A DNA stretch of 37,704 nt from a virus. Made by a program: the position numbers and the translations under genes. The notes beneath the pieces are model-generated. The model searched no databases, was not told where the DNA came from, and was given only the letters and a program-made list of their open reading frames with translations. The stretch lies in IMG/VR virus record IMGVR_UViG_3300006919_000154, positions 1 to 37,704 of that record, one strand, 5' to 3'. Shown piece after piece: positions 3,974 to 10,794 of this stretch (position 1 is its first letter; every line of letters starts with the position of its first letter).

Positions 3974-4390
3974 CTATTTTCTATCACCTTTATGCTTATC
4001 TATGCGGTCTAAAATTTGATTTACAACATCCATTTTAATAAAACCAGCCATTGATGCATTTTTTAAGGCACTTATTAATTGTAAAACTACAAGGGGCATT
4101 ACAACGGTTTCACTTAACCATCCTGCCCCTGGTATGCTTTTTTCTATTACTAAAATTACTGTTAACATAATAACCCAGAAAAGTAGAGTTTTTAAAATTT
4201 TAATTGCTTTATAAGTTTTAAATCCTTCTCTTTTAACCCCAGCTATTACTCCAAAAAAACCATCTGCAAAAATTAATGTAGCAATCGCTAAATATTGTTC
4301 TGCGTTTTGCATTGTAAGTTCCATAAAATAAGAACATATAAATGCTAGTGACATTGTGCTTCCTGCTATCATTAATTTAATATTACTCAT
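3974..4390 (-). CDS. Phage holin (holin family 4-like)
   Basis: Holins form lesions in the inner membrane at the end of infection. The 138-residue product has three to four hydrophobic helices (about 7-25, 33-50, 66-88, 95-110). Between the second and third is the FFGVIAGVKREGFKTYKA segment typical of the toxin-secretion/phage-lysis holin family (PF05105-like), with a basic loop after a membrane helix. The C-terminus is charged and soluble. It starts 2 bases after the stop of the L,D-transpeptidase-like gene, forming a lysis cassette. Family assignment is from recall of the motif. Confidence 0.72.
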   Translation of the reverse strand: MSNIKLMIAGSTMSLAFICSYFMELTMQNAEQYLAIATLIFADGFFGVIAGVKREGFKTYKAIKILKTLLFWVIMLTVILVIEKSIPGAGWLSETVVMPLVVLQLISALKNASMAGFIKMDVVNQILDRIDKHKGDRK

Positions 4391-4392
4391 GA

Positions 4393-4992
4393 TTATACTA
4401 GATCTTTTGATTCAATTAATGTGTAAGTAAATGAATTACCATATAAATCTTTAGCTTTATGAGCTAACTCCATTAATTGATTAAAATCAGATTCTTTAGA
4501 GAAAACTTGACATCCTGCTGACCATTTGTCAATTTGGGTTGAACCTTCTACTCTTGAACCTGCCTTATGGATGTTAATTCCGAAAATACCTTCATGAATG
4601 TTTTCTTCTAACATATCATATTTACCGTCTTTGTTATTATCACGATAAACTTTCACAGGTTTTTTCTGGCATAAAGCTTCATATTTACCTTGGTGTTTTC
4701 TTATTTCATGTGATCCTCTATATTGATTAGGGACTAAAATAGCTACTCCATCTTTATTAAGTAAATTCTTTTCCCAGTGTGATCCTGGATCTGTTGTGGC
4801 ATCAAATTCATGATATTTCATTTCACCATCTACTGAATATGAAACTGTAAGTTTATCATCAAACTTATTGGTTACAGTCCCATGGGTATCTGAGTTCCGT
4901 ACCCCAACAATATTTAAATTGTAGTCACCGCCTTCGAACCATTTATATCCTTTAGATTCTACGGTATTTTTAATTTGTTCTCTTGTATACAT
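4393..4992 (-). CDS. L,D-transpeptidase-like peptidoglycan enzyme, probable endolysin
   Basis: The 199-residue protein has a GINIHKAG segment with His142 and, after a 15-residue spacer, SAGC with Cys161. This spacing and pattern match the catalytic His...[S/T]-x-G-C signature of YkuD-type L,D-transpeptidases, which act on peptidoglycan stem peptides through a cysteine. A DNNKDGKYD loop at about 118-126 could bind calcium. There is no signal peptide, so it would need a holin to reach the wall. It sits between two holin-like genes (2-3 base gaps), which strongly suggests lysis. Whether it cuts or exchanges peptide bonds is open; it could also be a cysteine peptidase with a similar motif. Confidence 0.65.
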   Translation of the reverse strand: MYTREQIKNTVESKGYKWFEGGDYNLNIVGVRNSDTHGTVTNKFDDKLTVSYSVDGEMKYHEFDATTDPGSHWEKNLLNKDGVAILVPNQYRGSHEIRKHQGKYEALCQKKPVKVYRDNNKDGKYDMLEENIHEGIFGINIHKAGSRVEGSTQIDKWSAGCQVFSKESDFNQLMELAHKAKDLYGNSFTYTLIESKDLV

Positions 4993-4995
4993 TTA

Positions 4996-5250
4996 TTATT
5001 CTTTTTTTCCAAATATTTTACCTGCTTCAGCAATCCCAAAAGATCCTAAAGTGATAAATAAAAATGAATCATAAATAAATTCTTGGATTACTAAGTCTTT
5101 TCCAAAAAATCCAGTAACAATATCTGCTGCTGCAAATACTACCATAATAGCAAATGAAGCAAAACCAACTACTGATTTTTCGTTAATATCATTATTATCT
5201 TTAAAAATGTCTTTGAAAGCCATCCACTTATTTTTTAAATAATTTAACAT
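4996..5250 (-). CDS. Small two-helix membrane protein, second holin-like candidate
   Basis: The product has 84 residues: a charged N-terminal amphipathic stretch (about 1-25), two hydrophobic helices (about 29-47 and 58-75) and a basic end with GKIFGKKE. This is a class II holin-like topology. It lies 3 bases upstream of the probable endolysin, and another holin-like gene follows that one. It may be the second component of a holin/antiholin or pinholin pair, but a non-lysis role is possible. Confidence 0.55.
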   Translation of the reverse strand: MLNYLKNKWMAFKDIFKDNNDINEKSVVGFASFAIMVVFAAADIVTGFFGKDLVIQEFIYDSFLFITLGSFGIAEAGKIFGKKE

Positions 5251-5289: not shown

Positions 5290-6702
5290 TTAAAATTGGA
5301 ATTTAGAACCAATAGTAGCTGACCAAGTTATTGGGATTTCTGGAAGTGTTGTACCTATTATATTTCCTCCAATATTAAATCTAAATCTTTGTGTAATTCC
5401 TACATCAAAATTTGAACCTACTATATAAGTTATATGTTCATTTAATGCTAATTCTCCTTTAAATACAGCTTTTTTAGTAGAAAAAGTATATGATATTGGA
5501 TTAAGAGCTAAAGCTAGCATAGGAGATATAGTAACTCTTTTAGTTGGGAAAGGTTTAGTACCAAATAAAACACCTGAAGGCATTATCATAATATTATCTT
5601 CTACATTTATAATAGTACCTGATAGTGCAAATCCCCCAACAAATCCTTTCCAGAAGTTTTCTTTTTGTCCTAGATATACATTACTTATTCCAAATGAACC
5701 TACTTTAGTACCATAAATATACATGAAATTAGCACTAATAGATTGTATAAACATTATACTTCCTCTATTGTAAATAGACCCAAAATATAAATCTTCTTTT
5801 TTAGTTTCTGGGTTCCAAAGATATAATTTTTCTTCTTTATCATAATTAAAGTATACATCAGATTGAGATAAACTTAAACTAAATTGGTTTAAATTATCCC
5901 ATATCATTATATTTGCCGCATAGGTAGTAGTTCCTGTAAGGGAAGATTGGGAAAAACCTAAACTAATAGCATTAGTAAGAGTTCCATCTAAACCAGATTG
6001 ACTAAGTAAATTAGCAGATACTGCTATTGGGTTACGTTTTTCTGTTTTCTTTTCTTCTTCTTCTTCTGAGTTTTCTTCTTCTACTTCATCTGATTCAGAT
6101 TCTTCACTTTCCTTATCTTCTGAGTTTTCTGATTCAGTGCTATCTCCTTCTTCGGATGATTCTTGATTTTCTGAATTTTCAGAATTAGATCCTTCTCCTT
6201 CTGAATTATTCCCTTCTGAACTTCCTTCGCTTCCTCCAGAAGTTCCCTCTCCTGACGAATTGCCAGATTCGTTATTGTTATTCCCTGATTGAGTATTTGT
6301 ACTTGAAGTGCTAGAAGATGTATCTTGTGACGAAGTATTTGTAGTAGTTGTTGCATTGGACGTAGCATTTGAAGCAGCATTAGTAGCATTGGATGTTGTA
6401 GTAGTTGTTGTTTGCTGGGTGGTTTGTGTTGTTGCTGTGGTAGTTGAACATGGACTTAAATTTGACCACCATAAATATGTTTCATTTAACCAAGCTTCTA
6501 AAGTTCCATTAGTATATTCAGCCCAAGTAAAAGTTCTTACTTTATTATAAAAAGCTACTGTAGCAGATCCATTAACAAAAGCTGCAGTAACTATTTTAGT
6601 TTCACCAGTACATCTATCTACAAAAGTATTTACAACGTTTTGGGTTTGCCCTAATAAAGGGAAACACCAAAAAAGAATAAGTATGTAAAATAATTTTCGC
6701 AC
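5290..6702 (-). CDS. Secreted protein with long Thr/Ser/Glu linker and C-terminal beta-barrel-like domain
   Basis: I chose the GTG at 6700-6702 as start, one base after the CsgG-like stop; a TTG at 6714 is the other option. This gives a clean signal peptide ending in PLLGQ. A small N-terminal domain (about 22-86) follows, with two cysteines (RCTGET and SPCS) and aromatic motifs. A low-complexity linker runs from about 86 to 223, shifting from Thr-rich to Asn/Gly-rich to Glu-rich. The last 240 residues are alternating polar/hydrophobic beta-strands ending in Phe, as in outer-membrane barrels. It directly follows the CsgG-like gene, so it may be its cargo or partner. Family not recognised by name. 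Confidence 0.75.
   Translation of the reverse strand: MRKLFYILILFWCFPLLGQTQNVVNTFVDRCTGETKIVTAAFVNGSATVAFYNKVRTFTWAEYTNGTLEAWLNETYLWWSNLSPCSTTTATTQTTQQTTTTTTSNATNAASNATSNATTTTNTSSQDTSSSTSSTNTQSGNNNNESGNSSGEGTSGGSEGSSEGNNSEGEGSNSENSENQESSEEGDSTESENSEDKESEESESDEVEEENSEEEEEKKTEKRNPIAVSANLLSQSGLDGTLTNAISLGFSQSSLTGTTTYAANIMIWDNLNQFSLSLSQSDVYFNYDKEEKLYLWNPETKKEDLYFGSIYNRGSIMFIQSISANFMYIYGTKVGSFGISNVYLGQKENFWKGFVGGFALSGTIINVEDNIMIMPSGVLFGTKPFPTKRVTISPMLALALNPISYTFSTKKAVFKGELALNEHITYIVGSNFDVGITQRFRFNIGGNIIGTTLPEIPITWSATIGSKFQF
6034..6447 (-). repeat. Low-complexity linker-coding region
   Basis: This stretch inside the secreted-protein gene encodes about 138 residues drawn almost only from Thr, Ser, Asn, Gly and Glu. 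It moves from runs of Thr and Ala/Ser/Asn, through Gly/Ser/Asn, to long acidic runs. It is not an exact tandem repeat but is a clear compositional tract, likely a flexible extracellular spacer and prone to length change. Confidence 0.8.
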
Positions 6703-6703
6703 A

Positions 6704-7414
6704 TTAATGATCAAAGATACCTTTACGTATCATTCGTTTAACTACTTTAGCTACTCCTGTTTCTAAAGCTTTTTTAGTTGATGTACCTATAGAAGATTGA
6801 TTAAATTTAATTTCTTCTAAATTTTCGTCATTAAGTAAAGTCATTTCTCTTGTTGTTGTAGCTTTACCTAATCCAGATCCTGTCATATAAAGTCCAGTTT
6901 CTGCATCTACCATTTTAACTTGGAGACCTAATCTAGTAACTAAATTACTTTTAACTCCATCTTTTAAACTAATGGATTCATCTTCAGAGATAGAAAAATC
7001 ATATACCTCTATATAACAGAAGTATTTAGCAAGCATAATTTTACCTTTTATATCAATTTGGTTTGCAGTAAATCCTTTTTGGGATGCCTTATATTGAGTT
7101 ACCATTCTATCTTTGATTTCGTCTTTTGTTTCAACAAATTCAAATCTGAATGTCTCGTCTAAAAATGCTACTGTAATATTAGTTAATCCTAATCCAACTC
7201 TATAATCACCTAATTCGGGGTATTGTGACAATACTTCATCACTAACTCCAATATTAAGTAATGCTACAGTTACAGGATCTCCATTATATTCAGGTACTGA
7301 CCAAATAGATTCTTTTGATTCAAACCCTGCTGTATAATCTTCAGTTGTTGTCTTCCCTATTACTTGCCCAAATGCTACATTTAGCCCAAGTAAAAATACG
7401 ATAAGATATTTCAT
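6704..7414 (-). CDS. CsgG-like curli-secretion-type outer-membrane pore protein
   Basis: CsgG family proteins assemble as outer-membrane pores that export amyloid subunits. The 236-residue product begins with a short signal peptide ending in AFGQ, with no lipobox Cys. It then resembles a CsgG-like core: VTVALLNIGVSD opening, a central strand-helix pattern, YFCYIEVYDFS, and a LGLQVKMVDAETGLYMTGSGLGKATT segment split here as LGLQVKMVDAETG then LYMTGSGLGKATT. The latter echoes the V-D-x-x-T-G-x-x repeat seen in CsgG proteins. The C-terminal helix (KKALETGVAKVVKRM) fits the CsgG end. CsgG-like genes are known in some marine T4-like phages. It sits between small membrane proteins and a secreted barrel-like protein. 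Assignment is from motif recall. Confidence 0.72.
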   Translation of the reverse strand: MKYLIVFLLGLNVAFGQVIGKTTTEDYTAGFESKESIWSVPEYNGDPVTVALLNIGVSDEVLSQYPELGDYRVGLGLTNITVAFLDETFRFEFVETKDEIKDRMVTQYKASQKGFTANQIDIKGKIMLAKYFCYIEVYDFSISEDESISLKDGVKSNLVTRLGLQVKMVDAETGLYMTGSGLGKATTTREMTLLNDENLEEIKFNQSSIGTSTKKALETGVAKVVKRMIRKGIFDH

Positions 7415-7416
7415 TT

Positions 7417-7668
7417 TTATCCTAGTGTATCAAAAATACCAAAAGTGGCATTTTCAAATTGAGCTGGGTTTGTAATAAATTGAAACACTATAAAAGTCCA
7501 TCCAACCCAAAACATAGATATTAGCACTGTTATCCATAATGCTATAATAAAATCTAAGGGTTTTTTGGAATTTATAGCTGTTTGCCATAGCTCAACCACT
7601 GGAATAAAAAAGTACAAAATAAATTGGATTAGCCAAAATTGTTTTGTACGTTGTAATAGATAATTCAT
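7417..7668 (-). CDS. Small multi-helix membrane protein, unknown function
   Basis: The product has 83 residues with two hydrophobic helices (about 12-28 and 42-66) rich in Trp, Phe and Ile and few charges. It begins MNYLLQRTKQFWL. No family is recognised. It lies 2 bases before the CsgG-like gene, so the two are almost certainly translated from one message; a helper role for the secretion module is possible but unproven. Confidence 0.55.
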   Translation of the reverse strand: MNYLLQRTKQFWLIQFILYFFIPVVELWQTAINSKKPLDFIIALWITVLISMFWVGWTFIVFQFITNPAQFENATFGIFDTLG

Positions 7669-7722
7669 GGTTTTAATTTTAATTGTTACACTTCACTTTA
7701 TTTAAAATTTAACTGTGAATAG

Positions 7723-7748
7723 GGGAACCTAGTTGCAGCTGGGTTCCC
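7723..7748. terminator. Stem-loop with T-tract on the plus strand side
   Basis: A 7-bp stem (GGGAACC at 7723-7729 with GGTTCCC at 7742-7748) encloses a 12-base loop. The run of seven T (7750-7756) follows the hairpin only when read on the plus strand. Read on the coding (minus) strand the hairpin is preceded by A7 and followed by CTATTC, so it is a poor intrinsic terminator for the genes here. It lies in the 86-base gap between two minus-strand genes. Confidence 0.5.
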
Positions 7749-7754
7749 ATTTTT

Positions 7755-8039
7755 TTACCAGTCAAATTCTTCTTTTCTTTTTTCTGTTTCAGATTTTTTA
7801 GGTTCTTCTTTTTTAATAATTACTTTAGGTTGTTCTTTTTGAATTACAACTAAGGTATCTTTTTTAGATTCATTATTTTCTACTTGTGTTTCTATTTGTT
7901 GGAATTCTTCTTTAACCCCAAATAAAGATTCCATATTAGTTACTACTAAACCCCCAGCAGCTGTAATAATTATTCCTATTGTAGTTATAATTTGGTTTTT
8001 GATTTGACTAAAAAACCCACCTTGTTGTTCTTCACTCAT
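7755..8039 (-). CDS. Single-pass membrane protein with Lys/Glu-rich tail
   Basis: The product has 94 residues. A polar start (SEEQQGGFFSQ) is followed by one membrane helix (about 16-36, ending AAGGLVV) and then a long charged tail with many Gln, Glu and Lys and a PKVIIKKEEPKK segment. Such tails often reach across the periplasm in TonB-like or spanin-like proteins, but there is no further match. It starts 3 bases after the lipoprotein stop. A spanin pair (this protein and the neighbouring lipoprotein) is one reading; a role in the secretion module is another. Confidence 0.55.
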   Translation of the reverse strand: MSEEQQGGFFSQIKNQIITTIGIIITAAGGLVVTNMESLFGVKEEFQQIETQVENNESKKDTLVVIQKEQPKVIIKKEEPKKSETEKRKEEFDW

Positions 8040-8042
8040 AAT

Positions 8043-8417
8043 TTATAATTTAGAAAATGCTGTCACACCTATTAATTCATGGTTTTCAGTAGATAACTCT
8101 AATTTATATGAACTTTTTTCTAAAGCATTTACATATATTTTTAAAATATTATCTCCTTCTTTTCCTTGAATTTTTTCTTGAGAAATTAATTCATTATTTA
8201 AACCATGTTTAATTTTTATTCTATATACTCCATCAGCTGGGAGTTTTACATTCATAGCTACTCTATCAGAAACAATAGCACTAGCTAATTTAATTCCTTG
8301 TAGTTCACCTATAAACAATACATCAGGGGTTTCTACTACTGGATCTATAATAAATTCTTCATCTCTTACACATCCTAGTACTAATAATAATACTAATATT
8401 GATATTAATTTTTTCAT
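8043..8417 (-). CDS. Lipoprotein with acidic Bacteroidetes-type export signal
   Basis: The 124-residue product has a type II signal peptide with lipobox LVLGC (Cys16). The residues after Cys are V-R-D-E-E-F, close to the acidic signal that sends lipoproteins to the cell surface in Bacteroidetes. The mature part (about 30-124) looks like one beta-sandwich domain: RIKIKHGLNNELISQE, ILKIYVNALEKSSYKLEL. The stop of the cohesin/dockerin-like gene's neighbour is adjacent: it begins 1 base after the 566-residue gene ends. I recognise no named family. It may anchor the secreted partner on the outer membrane. Confidence 0.7.
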   Translation of the reverse strand: MKKLISILVLLLVLGCVRDEEFIIDPVVETPDVLFIGELQGIKLASAIVSDRVAMNVKLPADGVYRIKIKHGLNNELISQEKIQGKEGDNILKIYVNALEKSSYKLELSTENHELIGVTAFSKL

Positions 8418-8418
8418 A

Positions 8419-10119
8419 CTATTCTATATTAAATTTAATTTTAGTTCCATCTGCTTTAATACCTTCAGTTAGTTTGAAAGTAATTAAACCCGATGTATTT
8501 GTTAAAGTTTCATTAGGGGTAAATAATAATTTATAAGCAATTCCTTTTTTAATAGATATGTTTCCACTTTGGTCTAAAGAACCTATATTAACTTTTGCTT
8601 GGTTTTCTTTATGATTAGCAAAATTAGTCATTTCATTTCCTGTATCAAAGTAAATATCATCTAATGTTAAAATTGTATTATCATAATTTATATTAAATTG
8701 GGTTCCTATTACTCCATCTTCTTGTAAATTAATAGTAAATCTAACTCTATTATCTTCAGTTAGTTCTGATGTAACATCTAAATTAACATTAATAGGGTCT
8801 TTCATAGCATTTGTAGTTACACTCATTCTTGCTTGTGAAGTTGAGTTTTGAGCATAACCACTTCCTTCTGCTGTTGGTGTATAACCATGAGAAAAATCAA
8901 CATCTCCTATTAAAGCATGCCCAAAATTAAATGTTTTAGTAGCATCAGTAGGTTCTATAATAAACTTTTGTCCGAAATAATAGTCATTAGTTGATACACC
9001 TAATTGTTCTACTCTTCCCCAAACGTTTTTAGATCCATTAGTTGAATTAGTAAACCATTCACTTAATCCTTCTACACCTTGTACATGCCCTAAAGCTTGG
9101 TAGGCATCTGTAGGAGTAATATTACCAGTATTATCTAATTCACCCAAAAGGTATTGAATAGGATAATCAAAAGTATTTTGATTTCCAGTATCACCTGGGC
9201 CTCCTCCACCTGTAGCATTTGCTTGTTGGAAAATTATATAGGCATCTGTAATTGTTAATACATCATCTAACCAAGTAGCATTATTGCTTACTTTTATTTC
9301 TACATAATAATTTTGATCTACAATTAAATTACTAGTAATTACTTGTCCATTTGCATCAAAGTTTCCTGTTTCAATTGCATCTCCTGTTTTTCCATTTATT
9401 CCATTAGCATTATATATTGCATAAGTAAAATCAGTTGCATGGTTAGCTTTTGCGGCTGAGTTTAGATTTATTGTTACATTTCCTGCATTTACTCCACTAA
9501 CATTAGATAATGTAATATTTTCTGTACCAGCATTAACATCTAATAATCCAGAACTTGCACTTATATCTTCAAATCTAGCAAAGTTAAGATCAGTAACATT
9601 ATTATAATTAGAATATCCTGTTCCTTGTCTATCTTTAATTTTAAATCTAACATAAACCCAAGGAGTTGAAAGTGGTAAATTAGATGAAGATTGTATAATA
9701 ACCCTAGCTACAGACCAATCTGCAGTAGTGGGGTAAGAATCTCCTCCTCTATTTAACCAACCATATTGGTATTGAAAATCTAAATCATGTTCTGGGTATT
9801 GAACACCTGCATAGCTGGTTAAAGGGTTAAATCTATACCCGTTCCACACTGTCCAAGAATTTTGAACATCCGCAGGAGCTTGATTACCTGGGTCAAATGT
9901 ATGTGAAACATATTCTAATAATTTATTATTCCATTCAAAATCAAAATGGGCAAAATCAGGGGACATTCCACTTCCATTAATCCCTTCAAATTTTACAGTT
10001 ATAGTATCACCTACTACAAATCCATTAGTATCATCATCTATATAGCTGTGACTTAAATATCCTTCTTGTCCTAAGAGGGATAGGGGCAGTAAAATAAAAA
10101 ATAATAATTTTTTAATCAT
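8419..10119 (-). CDS. Large secreted protein with cohesin-like and dockerin-like segments
   Basis: The product has 566 residues and a signal peptide ending in LSLLGQ. Residues about 20-200 look like a cohesin/carbohydrate-binding-type beta-sandwich (FDFEWNNKLLEYVSHTF; PWVYVRFKIKDRQ). Two short segments in the middle share a dockerin-like Ca-binding pattern: LDDVLTITDAYIIFQQ (about 280-296) and LDNTGNITPTDAYQAL (about 327-342), separated by a Gly-rich stretch. Residues about 430-566 form a second cohesin-like domain (VRFTINL, GTQFNINYDNTILTLDDI). All this points to extracellular protein-protein or sugar binding. The ATG overlaps the stop of a 32-codon gene (ATGA). Function in the phage is unknown; adhesion, surface display or tail-fibre-like use are possible. 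Confidence 0.7.
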   Translation of the reverse strand: MIKKLLFFILLPLSLLGQEGYLSHSYIDDDTNGFVVGDTITVKFEGINGSGMSPDFAHFDFEWNNKLLEYVSHTFDPGNQAPADVQNSWTVWNGYRFNPLTSYAGVQYPEHDLDFQYQYGWLNRGGDSYPTTADWSVARVIIQSSSNLPLSTPWVYVRFKIKDRQGTGYSNYNNVTDLNFARFEDISASSGLLDVNAGTENITLSNVSGVNAGNVTINLNSAAKANHATDFTYAIYNANGINGKTGDAIETGNFDANGQVITSNLIVDQNYYVEIKVSNNATWLDDVLTITDAYIIFQQANATGGGGPGDTGNQNTFDYPIQYLLGELDNTGNITPTDAYQALGHVQGVEGLSEWFTNSTNGSKNVWGRVEQLGVSTNDYYFGQKFIIEPTDATKTFNFGHALIGDVDFSHGYTPTAEGSGYAQNSTSQARMSVTTNAMKDPINVNLDVTSELTEDNRVRFTINLQEDGVIGTQFNINYDNTILTLDDIYFDTGNEMTNFANHKENQAKVNIGSLDQSGNISIKKGIAYKLLFTPNETLTNTSGLITFKLTEGIKADGTKIKFNIE

Positions 10120-10214
10120 TTTTTCATGTGTTTAGTTAATCCTGGGTACATACTATATCCTATTTTTGTTAGCCAGTTATCAACTTTAATTAATACTCGT
10201 TTTAATTTTTTCAT
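10116..10214 (-). CDS. 32-residue coupled basic microprotein
   Basis: A frame from ATG (10212-10214) to TGA (10116-10118) encodes MKKLKRVLIKVDNWLTKIGY and 12 further residues ending in HMKK. Its start overlaps the upstream gene's stop (ATGA), and its own stop overlaps the start of the 566-residue secreted protein (ATGA). Such double coupling is unlikely by chance and supports translation. The product is an amphipathic basic helix with no known family. It may serve mainly to couple translation of the flanking secreted proteins. Confidence 0.6.
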   Translation of the reverse strand: MKKLKRVLIKVDNWLTKIGYSMYPGLTKHMKK

Positions 10215-10690
10215 AATTTTAATTTGTCAATAAGTTGTTCACATACTTTTTTAAGGGCACTTGACACTCCTACTTGAGAAAACTTACCTCCATCATCTAT
10301 TATTAAAGTAGATACAGAAATAGATTTAGAAGTACCTTTTGCTACTACTTCCTTAATTATCTCTCCATCTACTATTAATCTTGCTCCTGCTACAATTTGT
10401 GTTATATCAACTTGACGTCCATATACAGCAAATTGTGCACTATTATTCTTTACATCAAAATAAAGTAATTCGACTTTAATGCTTTTTAGTGCATTATCAT
10501 CTAAATAATAATCTCTATCTTGGATAATTTCTTCTAGGATATTTTTTACACCAAAAGCCAAGTCACGGTTACCCGCAAAAGGGCCCATAACAATGTTATT
10601 GGTAACTTCTTCTATCTTTATAGTTTCTTGGCTATAAAGGTTCATACCCAAAAATAGGGTAATTAGACATAGTAATTTCATATTTAACAT
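10211..10690 (-). CDS. Secreted (signal-peptide) protein of unknown family, curli-module neighbour
   Basis: The first ATG (10688-10690) follows an A-rich leader and is my start choice; a TTG at 10705 and an ATG at 10681 are alternatives, and the latter gives the neatest signal peptide (MKLLCLITLFLGMNLYSQ). The mature part of about 135 residues mixes strands and helices: IVAGARLIVDGEIIKEVVAKGTS, a strand-rich middle, then a C-terminal amphipathic helix. The general look recalls small outer-membrane-associated proteins such as YajG- or LpoB/CsgG-related folds, but I cannot assign a family. It opens the envelope module, downstream of a terminator and an inverted repeat. Confidence 0.6.
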   Translation of the reverse strand: MLNMKLLCLITLFLGMNLYSQETIKIEEVTNNIVMGPFAGNRDLAFGVKNILEEIIQDRDYYLDDNALKSIKVELLYFDVKNNSAQFAVYGRQVDITQIVAGARLIVDGEIIKEVVAKGTSKSISVSTLIIDDGGKFSQVGVSSALKKVCEQLIDKLKL

Positions 10691-10768: not shown

Positions 10769-10794
10769 AAAAAAGGGGACGCTTGGCGACCCCT
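10769..10794 (-). terminator. Rho-independent terminator after the nucleotide module
   Basis: On the minus strand AGGGG-T-CGC, loop CAA, GCG-T-CCCCT forms an 8-bp stem with one T/T mismatch, followed at once by six T. It lies 26 bases after the stop of the 76-residue membrane protein gene and separates the replication/nucleotide genes from the secretion module. The 115-base gap 10706-10820 holds this element and the inverted repeat. Confidence 0.85.

Follow-up and report, generated by a model that had tools for sequence, protein, structure and literature searches.

The locus described here raises the question of what a T4-like phage does with a run of genes for exported and membrane proteins, one of them CsgG-like, placed next to its lysis genes. 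The window, by which we mean the whole 37.7-kb IMG/VR fragment (37,704 nucleotides) that was analyzed, carries on its minus strand, in this order, phoH-like, tail and replication genes, nrdB, nrdA, the block, a gene for a small membrane protein, an endolysin-type gene, and a holin gene. The block itself (5290 to 10690, minus strand) encodes seven exported or membrane proteins in nearly contiguous genes, and every part that the initial annotation had named in calling it an envelope and secretion module was found there. We found 59 related loci in IMG/VR and one more in an isolate, Flavobacterium phage vB_FspM_immuto, whose gp017 is a CsgG-like protein with 49.6% identity to that of the window. 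Since the relatives include this Flavobacterium phage, we assign the host group to Bacteroidota, with Flavobacteriia the most likely host class of the window phage. The window also encodes a DUF6445 protein (2270 to 2830; E value of 3e-11), which is present in just 1 of the 59 related loci.

Across relatives, the block behaves as a unit. The families of the signal-peptide protein sec164, the cohesin protein coh566, the lipoprotein lipo124, the CsgG-like protein and the barrel protein barrel474 are collinear on one strand in 46 of the 46 loci that were anchored on the CsgG-like gene and had enough flank, although these loci are related and are not independent events. Likewise, the cohesin and CsgG-like genes are present in all 52 loci anchored on sec164, where no cluster without the CsgG-like gene was found, and the association first proposed from the window extends in this way to its relatives. 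The block is a real cassette, beyond what chance would produce. Its flanks vary: some lineages have nrdAB upstream and in the orientation of the block, and others have them downstream and on the opposite strand. A bacterial origin was rejected: of 296 Bacteroidota genomes, one contained sec164, and the contig with this match (L143), part of a MAG, is phage-like. A search of genome contigs returned only two contigs of this kind.

The site of the cassette has other occupants in close relatives. The CsgG-like and sec164 genes are missing from 13 of the 14 contigs that were recovered through the tail-tube gene, most of these being fragments. Three are long and syntenic with the window (nrdB, nrdA, slot, lysis genes) and contain zero module genes. 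In G308, the slot encodes an 842-aa protein that has a T9SS sorting domain (E value of 2.8e-14) together with barrel-like, small one-helix, and thioredoxin-like proteins; in G309, it encodes barrel-like, one-helix, and thioredoxin-like proteins plus a lipoprotein; and in G310, only a GIY-YIG-type endonuclease, recognized by eye. In a fourth syntenic relative, G314, the slot is 1 kb long and contains no module genes. We conclude that the slot between nrdA and the lysis genes accommodates exchangeable envelope proteins, with the CsgG-like cassette as one occupant. In the 842-aa protein of G308 (38046-40574; L253:46-2574), the strong T9SS sorting domain is combined with numerous repeats of the form GCTDPxSxNYxPxAnxDdGSC.

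The CsgG-like protein (6704 to 7414, minus strand; 236 aa) has a type I signal peptide that ends in ...FGQ, and neither it nor any aligned homologue has a Cys there, that is, a lipobox. Its AlphaFold2 model is of modest quality (pLDDT of 60.5) with long predicted strands; in a Foldseek search of the PDB, the top 17 matches are all Escherichia coli CsgG (E values from 1.7e-7 down, at TM-scores of only 0.35 to 0.43), and the first viral match is annotated as a phage CsgG. The Pfam CsgG profile (PF03783) had no match in the window protein at an E value of ≤1 and none in 12 phage records at ≤10, while it detected the CsgG of pelagimyophage HTVC008M at 1.8e-54. We dropped a proof of CsgG homology by hhalign, since the result was not significant and an unrelated pair, lipo124 and CsgG, scored higher (22%); the fold result is thus the sole basis of the assignment. 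On this predicted structure, we accept a CsgG-like fold for the 6704 to 7414 product, in agreement with the initial annotation, and we reject membership in the CsgG family itself, given the missing lipobox and Pfam match and the lack of CsgE, CsgF, and curlin. Of the pore that had been proposed, the fold stands, and the pore itself is putative: the protein has no lipobox and no clear transmembrane hairpins, and its strands have no clear lipid-facing pattern in an amphipathicity test that also fails on parts of true CsgG. This protein is the most conserved part of the module, with a mean column identity of 64% compared to 35% for coh566, and the surface parts of the module diverge much faster.

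A second protein of related predicted fold is encoded at the other end of the block. The sec164 protein (10211 to 10690, minus strand), which has a signal peptide, yielded a good AlphaFold2 model (pLDDT of 83) that matched HpaA, Cj1090c, CsgG, and LptE in Foldseek at about 1e-6, together with a weak YajG-type NCBIfam match (E value of 0.004) and an hhalign value of 42% against the CsgG-like protein. From these models, the CsgG-like protein and sec164 are predicted to share the CsgG/LptE superfold. This fold type also led us to reject sec164 as a CsgE. Between sec164 and coh566 lies a 32-aa open reading frame (10116 to 10214, minus strand), joined to both neighbors by ATGA overlaps at its start and stop. 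A stretch homologous to this small open reading frame is fused to the N terminus of the cohesin protein in L055.

Given a CsgG-like fold with secreted partners, and with phage curli clusters that contain curlin repeats on record (HTVC008M), the cassette could be read as a true curli (type VIII) system that makes amyloid fibers. We regard this as very improbable. A Pfam scan of ten window proteins found no CsgE, CsgF, or curlin repeat, and hhalign to the CsgE and CsgF profiles gave 8% or less, so the search for csgE/F partners suggested at the outset found none; with the Pfam CsgG match and the lipobox also absent, membership in the curli/T8SS group was rejected.

The secreted coh566 protein (8419 to 10119, minus strand; 566 aa) has a C-terminal Cohesin domain (PF00963; E value of 3.5e-5, 24.5 bits compared to the Pfam cutoff of 24.1), and 19 of 31 homologues match Cohesin at an E value of ≤0.1. 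A dockerin-like motif in the middle of the protein, seen by eye, is weak (a PDB dockerin at an E value of 0.3), and the Pfam Dockerin profile had no match in coh566 or its homologues, so of the cohesin/dockerin-like protein described initially we retain the cohesin part and regard the dockerin part as tentative. Lectin-type (C-type lectin) partners or fusions occur in this family. In some lineages, the cohesin family has a further and longer member that carries a C-type lectin domain (L105:10125-12422 and L073:10054-12300), and the lipoprotein is also present in a second copy.

In most lineages other than those of immuto and L144, as in the window, the cohesin gene is followed by that for lipo124 (8043 to 8417, minus strand; 124 aa). 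A lipobox is present in 59 of 60 lipo124 homologues, and acidic residues lie near the Cys in all of them. The window copy reads C-V-R-D-E, compared to the C-X-K-(D/E)2 export signal of Bacteroidota surface lipoproteins (PMC5080379), with R replacing K. Judged from sequence, lipo124 carries this surface-lipoprotein signal, and its export is predicted. The T9SS type A sorting domain (Por_Secre_tail) matched 21 of 33 lipo124 rows at an E value of ≤0.1, the best, in L011, being over the cutoff at 1.3e-7; the sole match of the window copy itself is DUF3244 at 0.0025. When the lipo124 family profile was compared to the sorting domain, with one mis-assigned row, immuto gp016 (a mem94 homologue), omitted, hhalign gave 84%, versus 0.1 to 0.3% for seven control families. 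The predicted identity of lipo124 is therefore a free-standing T9SS sorting-like domain. In immuto (gp015; E value of 2.4e-8) and L144 (1.9e-11), a T9SS sorting domain is found on the cohesin protein itself, and lipo124 was not found in these two lineages. Because the same domain is part of the cohesin protein in some lineages and a protein by itself in others, the two fused cases suggest that coh566 and lipo124 act together. In some lineages, the genes for lipo124 and mem94 are separated by one for an additional lipoprotein, which is of coiled-coil type and has a thrombospondin type 3-like repeat (L050:6260-6742 and L030:6839-7384).

The remaining parts of the block are membrane proteins. The barrel474 protein (5290 to 6714, minus strand) consists of a signal peptide, a two-Cys N-terminal domain, an acidic linker, and a predicted outer-membrane barrel; a BAM-type C-terminal signal is present in 23 of 36 distinct tails of its family (TIGSKFQF in the window). 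The linker is variable and of low complexity, being acidic (S/T/N/E-rich) in the window and S/T/G/P-rich elsewhere, and L144 encodes the linker protein and the barrel in two separate genes. Matches to barrel474 in Pfam and NCBIfam, such as Zip and Presenilin, were discarded as low-complexity artifacts of this linker. The mem94 protein (7755 to 8039, minus strand) has one transmembrane helix and a charged, Pro-containing tail that ends in Trp, as it does in 70 of 70 distinct homologues collected with a profile of the N-terminal part. The small membrane protein mem83 (7417 to 7668, minus strand) was found by blastp in 27 of 59 loci and so is not universal. An 11-pair, G+C-rich hairpin lies between mem94 and mem83 (7723 to 7748), with a T-run on the plus-strand side only, opposite the genes.

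Directly downstream of the block are genes for an 84-aa small membrane protein (4996 to 5250, minus strand), which had no profile match and is a holin candidate that recurs by endolysins in relatives; an endolysin-type protein (4393 to 4992, minus strand; phrog_33083 endolysin, E value of 1.3e-13); and a holin (3974 to 4390, minus strand; Phage_holin_4_1, PF05105, E value of 1.2e-4, over the cutoff). Of 43 loci, 40 have an endolysin-type gene within a few kilobases of the CsgG-like gene, and in four cases it sits within the module. These genes belong to five unrelated families, namely, the window type, Amidase_2, GH19, Peptidase M15, and DUF5675, the last of which is counted solely for its position. 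Prediction of terminator-like sites in the window gave none separating the module from the lysis genes and one ahead of the module, at 10776 to 10793, an arrangement that fits late expression. A search for T4-type late promoters (TATAAATA) was uninformative, with 14 found compared to 13.3 expected. The adjacent holin and endolysin genes, beyond 5290 to 10690, belong with the cassette. This link to lysis, the exchangeable slot, and the sorting-like nature of lipo124 all go beyond the initial annotation.

This linkage, and the lack of a predicted terminator-like site, could mean that the cassette serves the outer-membrane stage of lysis, forming with holin and endolysin a trans-envelope complex that breaks, opens, or permeabilizes the outer membrane as spanins do. 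Here, mem94 would reach out from the inner membrane and lipo124, the CsgG-like protein, and the barrel would sit at the outer membrane; the pairing of mem94 with lipo124 does give an inner-membrane plus lipoprotein topology. However, close syntenic relatives keep lysis genes without the module, and the linkage is therefore no proof of a lysis function. In addition, L030 carries the module plus a separate Rz-like protein (phrog_739; E value of 0.0017), and it is not obvious what cohesin, lectin, and sorting domains would do in lysis. We consider a lysis role unlikely, but it is the main rival of the reading favored below.

Superinfection exclusion, in which the envelope proteins would mask receptors or destroy the DNA of incoming competitor phages, is more doubtful still. 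It draws on the envelope location, on the variable occupants of the slot, and on an Endonuclease_NS nuclease with a signal peptide, which is encoded within the module in L033 and adjacent to it in immuto and which may act on periplasmic DNA. The nuclease is not universal, though; no exclusion domain was recognized; and the cassette adjoins lysis genes, which suggests late expression. Coordinates for this nuclease are L033:7186-7797 and L061:5193-5771. Virion proteins are also disfavored, in this case by the signal peptides on the main parts.

The reading that we favor, at somewhat short of an even chance, is that the block is an optional, non-amyloid, curli-like surface-display cassette of a T4-like phage of Bacteroidota, expressed with the lysis genes. 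It is based on the Cohesin, C-type lectin, and T9SS sorting domains, the occurrence of the sorting domain in fused and split forms, the surface-lipoprotein signal, the BAM-type barrel, the two CsgG/LptE folds, the strict linkage, and the faster divergence of the surface parts, and on the unrelated surface proteins that fill the same slot in syntenic relatives; the export or display system originally proposed gains support from the same domains, signal, and barrel. An all-or-none exported set beside lysis genes, with an adhesin-like protein and its lipid anchor among its members, suggests that the phage rebuilds the host surface late in infection. The cassette, probably in one transcription unit with the lysis genes, would build a surface-display complex in the host envelope. 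The CsgG-like protein would assemble as a ring, in the periplasm or the outer membrane, for which barrel474 would serve as membrane part or partner, and the C-terminal Trp of mem94 would tie this ring to the inner membrane. The coh566 protein could then get to the cell surface through or around the CsgG-like/barrel port and be held there by lipo124 as a lipid-anchored sorting-like domain, while immuto and L144, with the sorting domain on the cohesin protein, would rely on the T9SS of the host. Display of this protein may alter what the infected cell binds, for example, so that competing phages are excluded or cells are tethered; this purpose is the least certain step.

Several points count against display. 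In immuto and L144, where a T9SS signal is present on the cohesin protein itself, CsgG would not be needed for export, though it is kept, and the neighboring lysis genes suggest another role. The absence of a lipobox and of clear transmembrane hairpins in the CsgG-like protein, and the modest quality of its model, also count against it. A more specific form of the proposal is a trans-envelope, non-curli machine in which an unlipidated CsgG-like ring, sec164, a Trp-ended mem94, and a lipidated sorting domain separated from its cargo re-dress the surface shortly before burst from within the lysis operon; we hold this tentatively, and as rather less than probable.

Phage-borne CsgG clusters have no agreed function, and we found no paper describing the present cassette in the open-access literature. 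Pelagimyophage HTVC008M has a cluster of csgF, csgG, and curlin repeats (PMC7029224), and a role in lysis has been proposed for csgGF of methylophage Melnitz (PMC9004378). The present cassette resembles these pelagimyophage and methylophage clusters in combining a phage-borne CsgG-type protein with small membrane proteins and secreted partners. In contrast, the CsgG of HTVC008M is a true Pfam CsgG with a lipobox, accompanied by CsgF and curlin repeats, none of which occur here, and the present cassette instead has a cohesin protein, a sorting-domain lipoprotein, an LptE/CsgG-fold protein, a barrel, and adjoining lysis genes. Chromosomal curli operons of Bacteroidota contain csgE, csgF, csgG, and curlins, and their CsgG proteins (450 to 469 aa) have a barrel-looking C-terminal extension. 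This recalls the CsgG-like and barrel gene pair of the phage, although hhalign gives this barrel match only 9%, and the phage cassette differs in lacking CsgE, CsgF, and curlins and in having the barrel as a separate gene.

The cassette is also like two-component spanins in placing an inner-membrane protein beside an outer-membrane lipoprotein near an endolysin. It differs in that mem94 has a disordered Pro/Lys tail with a terminal Trp and no evident coiled coil and lipo124 is sorting-domain-like, and spanin profiles had no match in the cassette. Since the cassette is compact, present in many environmental contigs, tied to lysis genes, and missing from or exchanged at the same site in close relatives, its role is testable by comparison or deletion, and phage immuto offers a relative with a cultured host, Flavobacterium sp. 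LMO8. The closest parallel to its sorting domain is T9SS cargo, and T9SS-tagged phage proteins are already known from a cryoconite phage (PMC7468147). In immuto and L144, the type A sorting domain forms part of the cohesin protein, and elsewhere it is found as lipo124, which is a lone lipidated domain rather than a C-terminal tag. The split and fused forms provide a natural test of a T9SS sorting domain unattached to its cargo.
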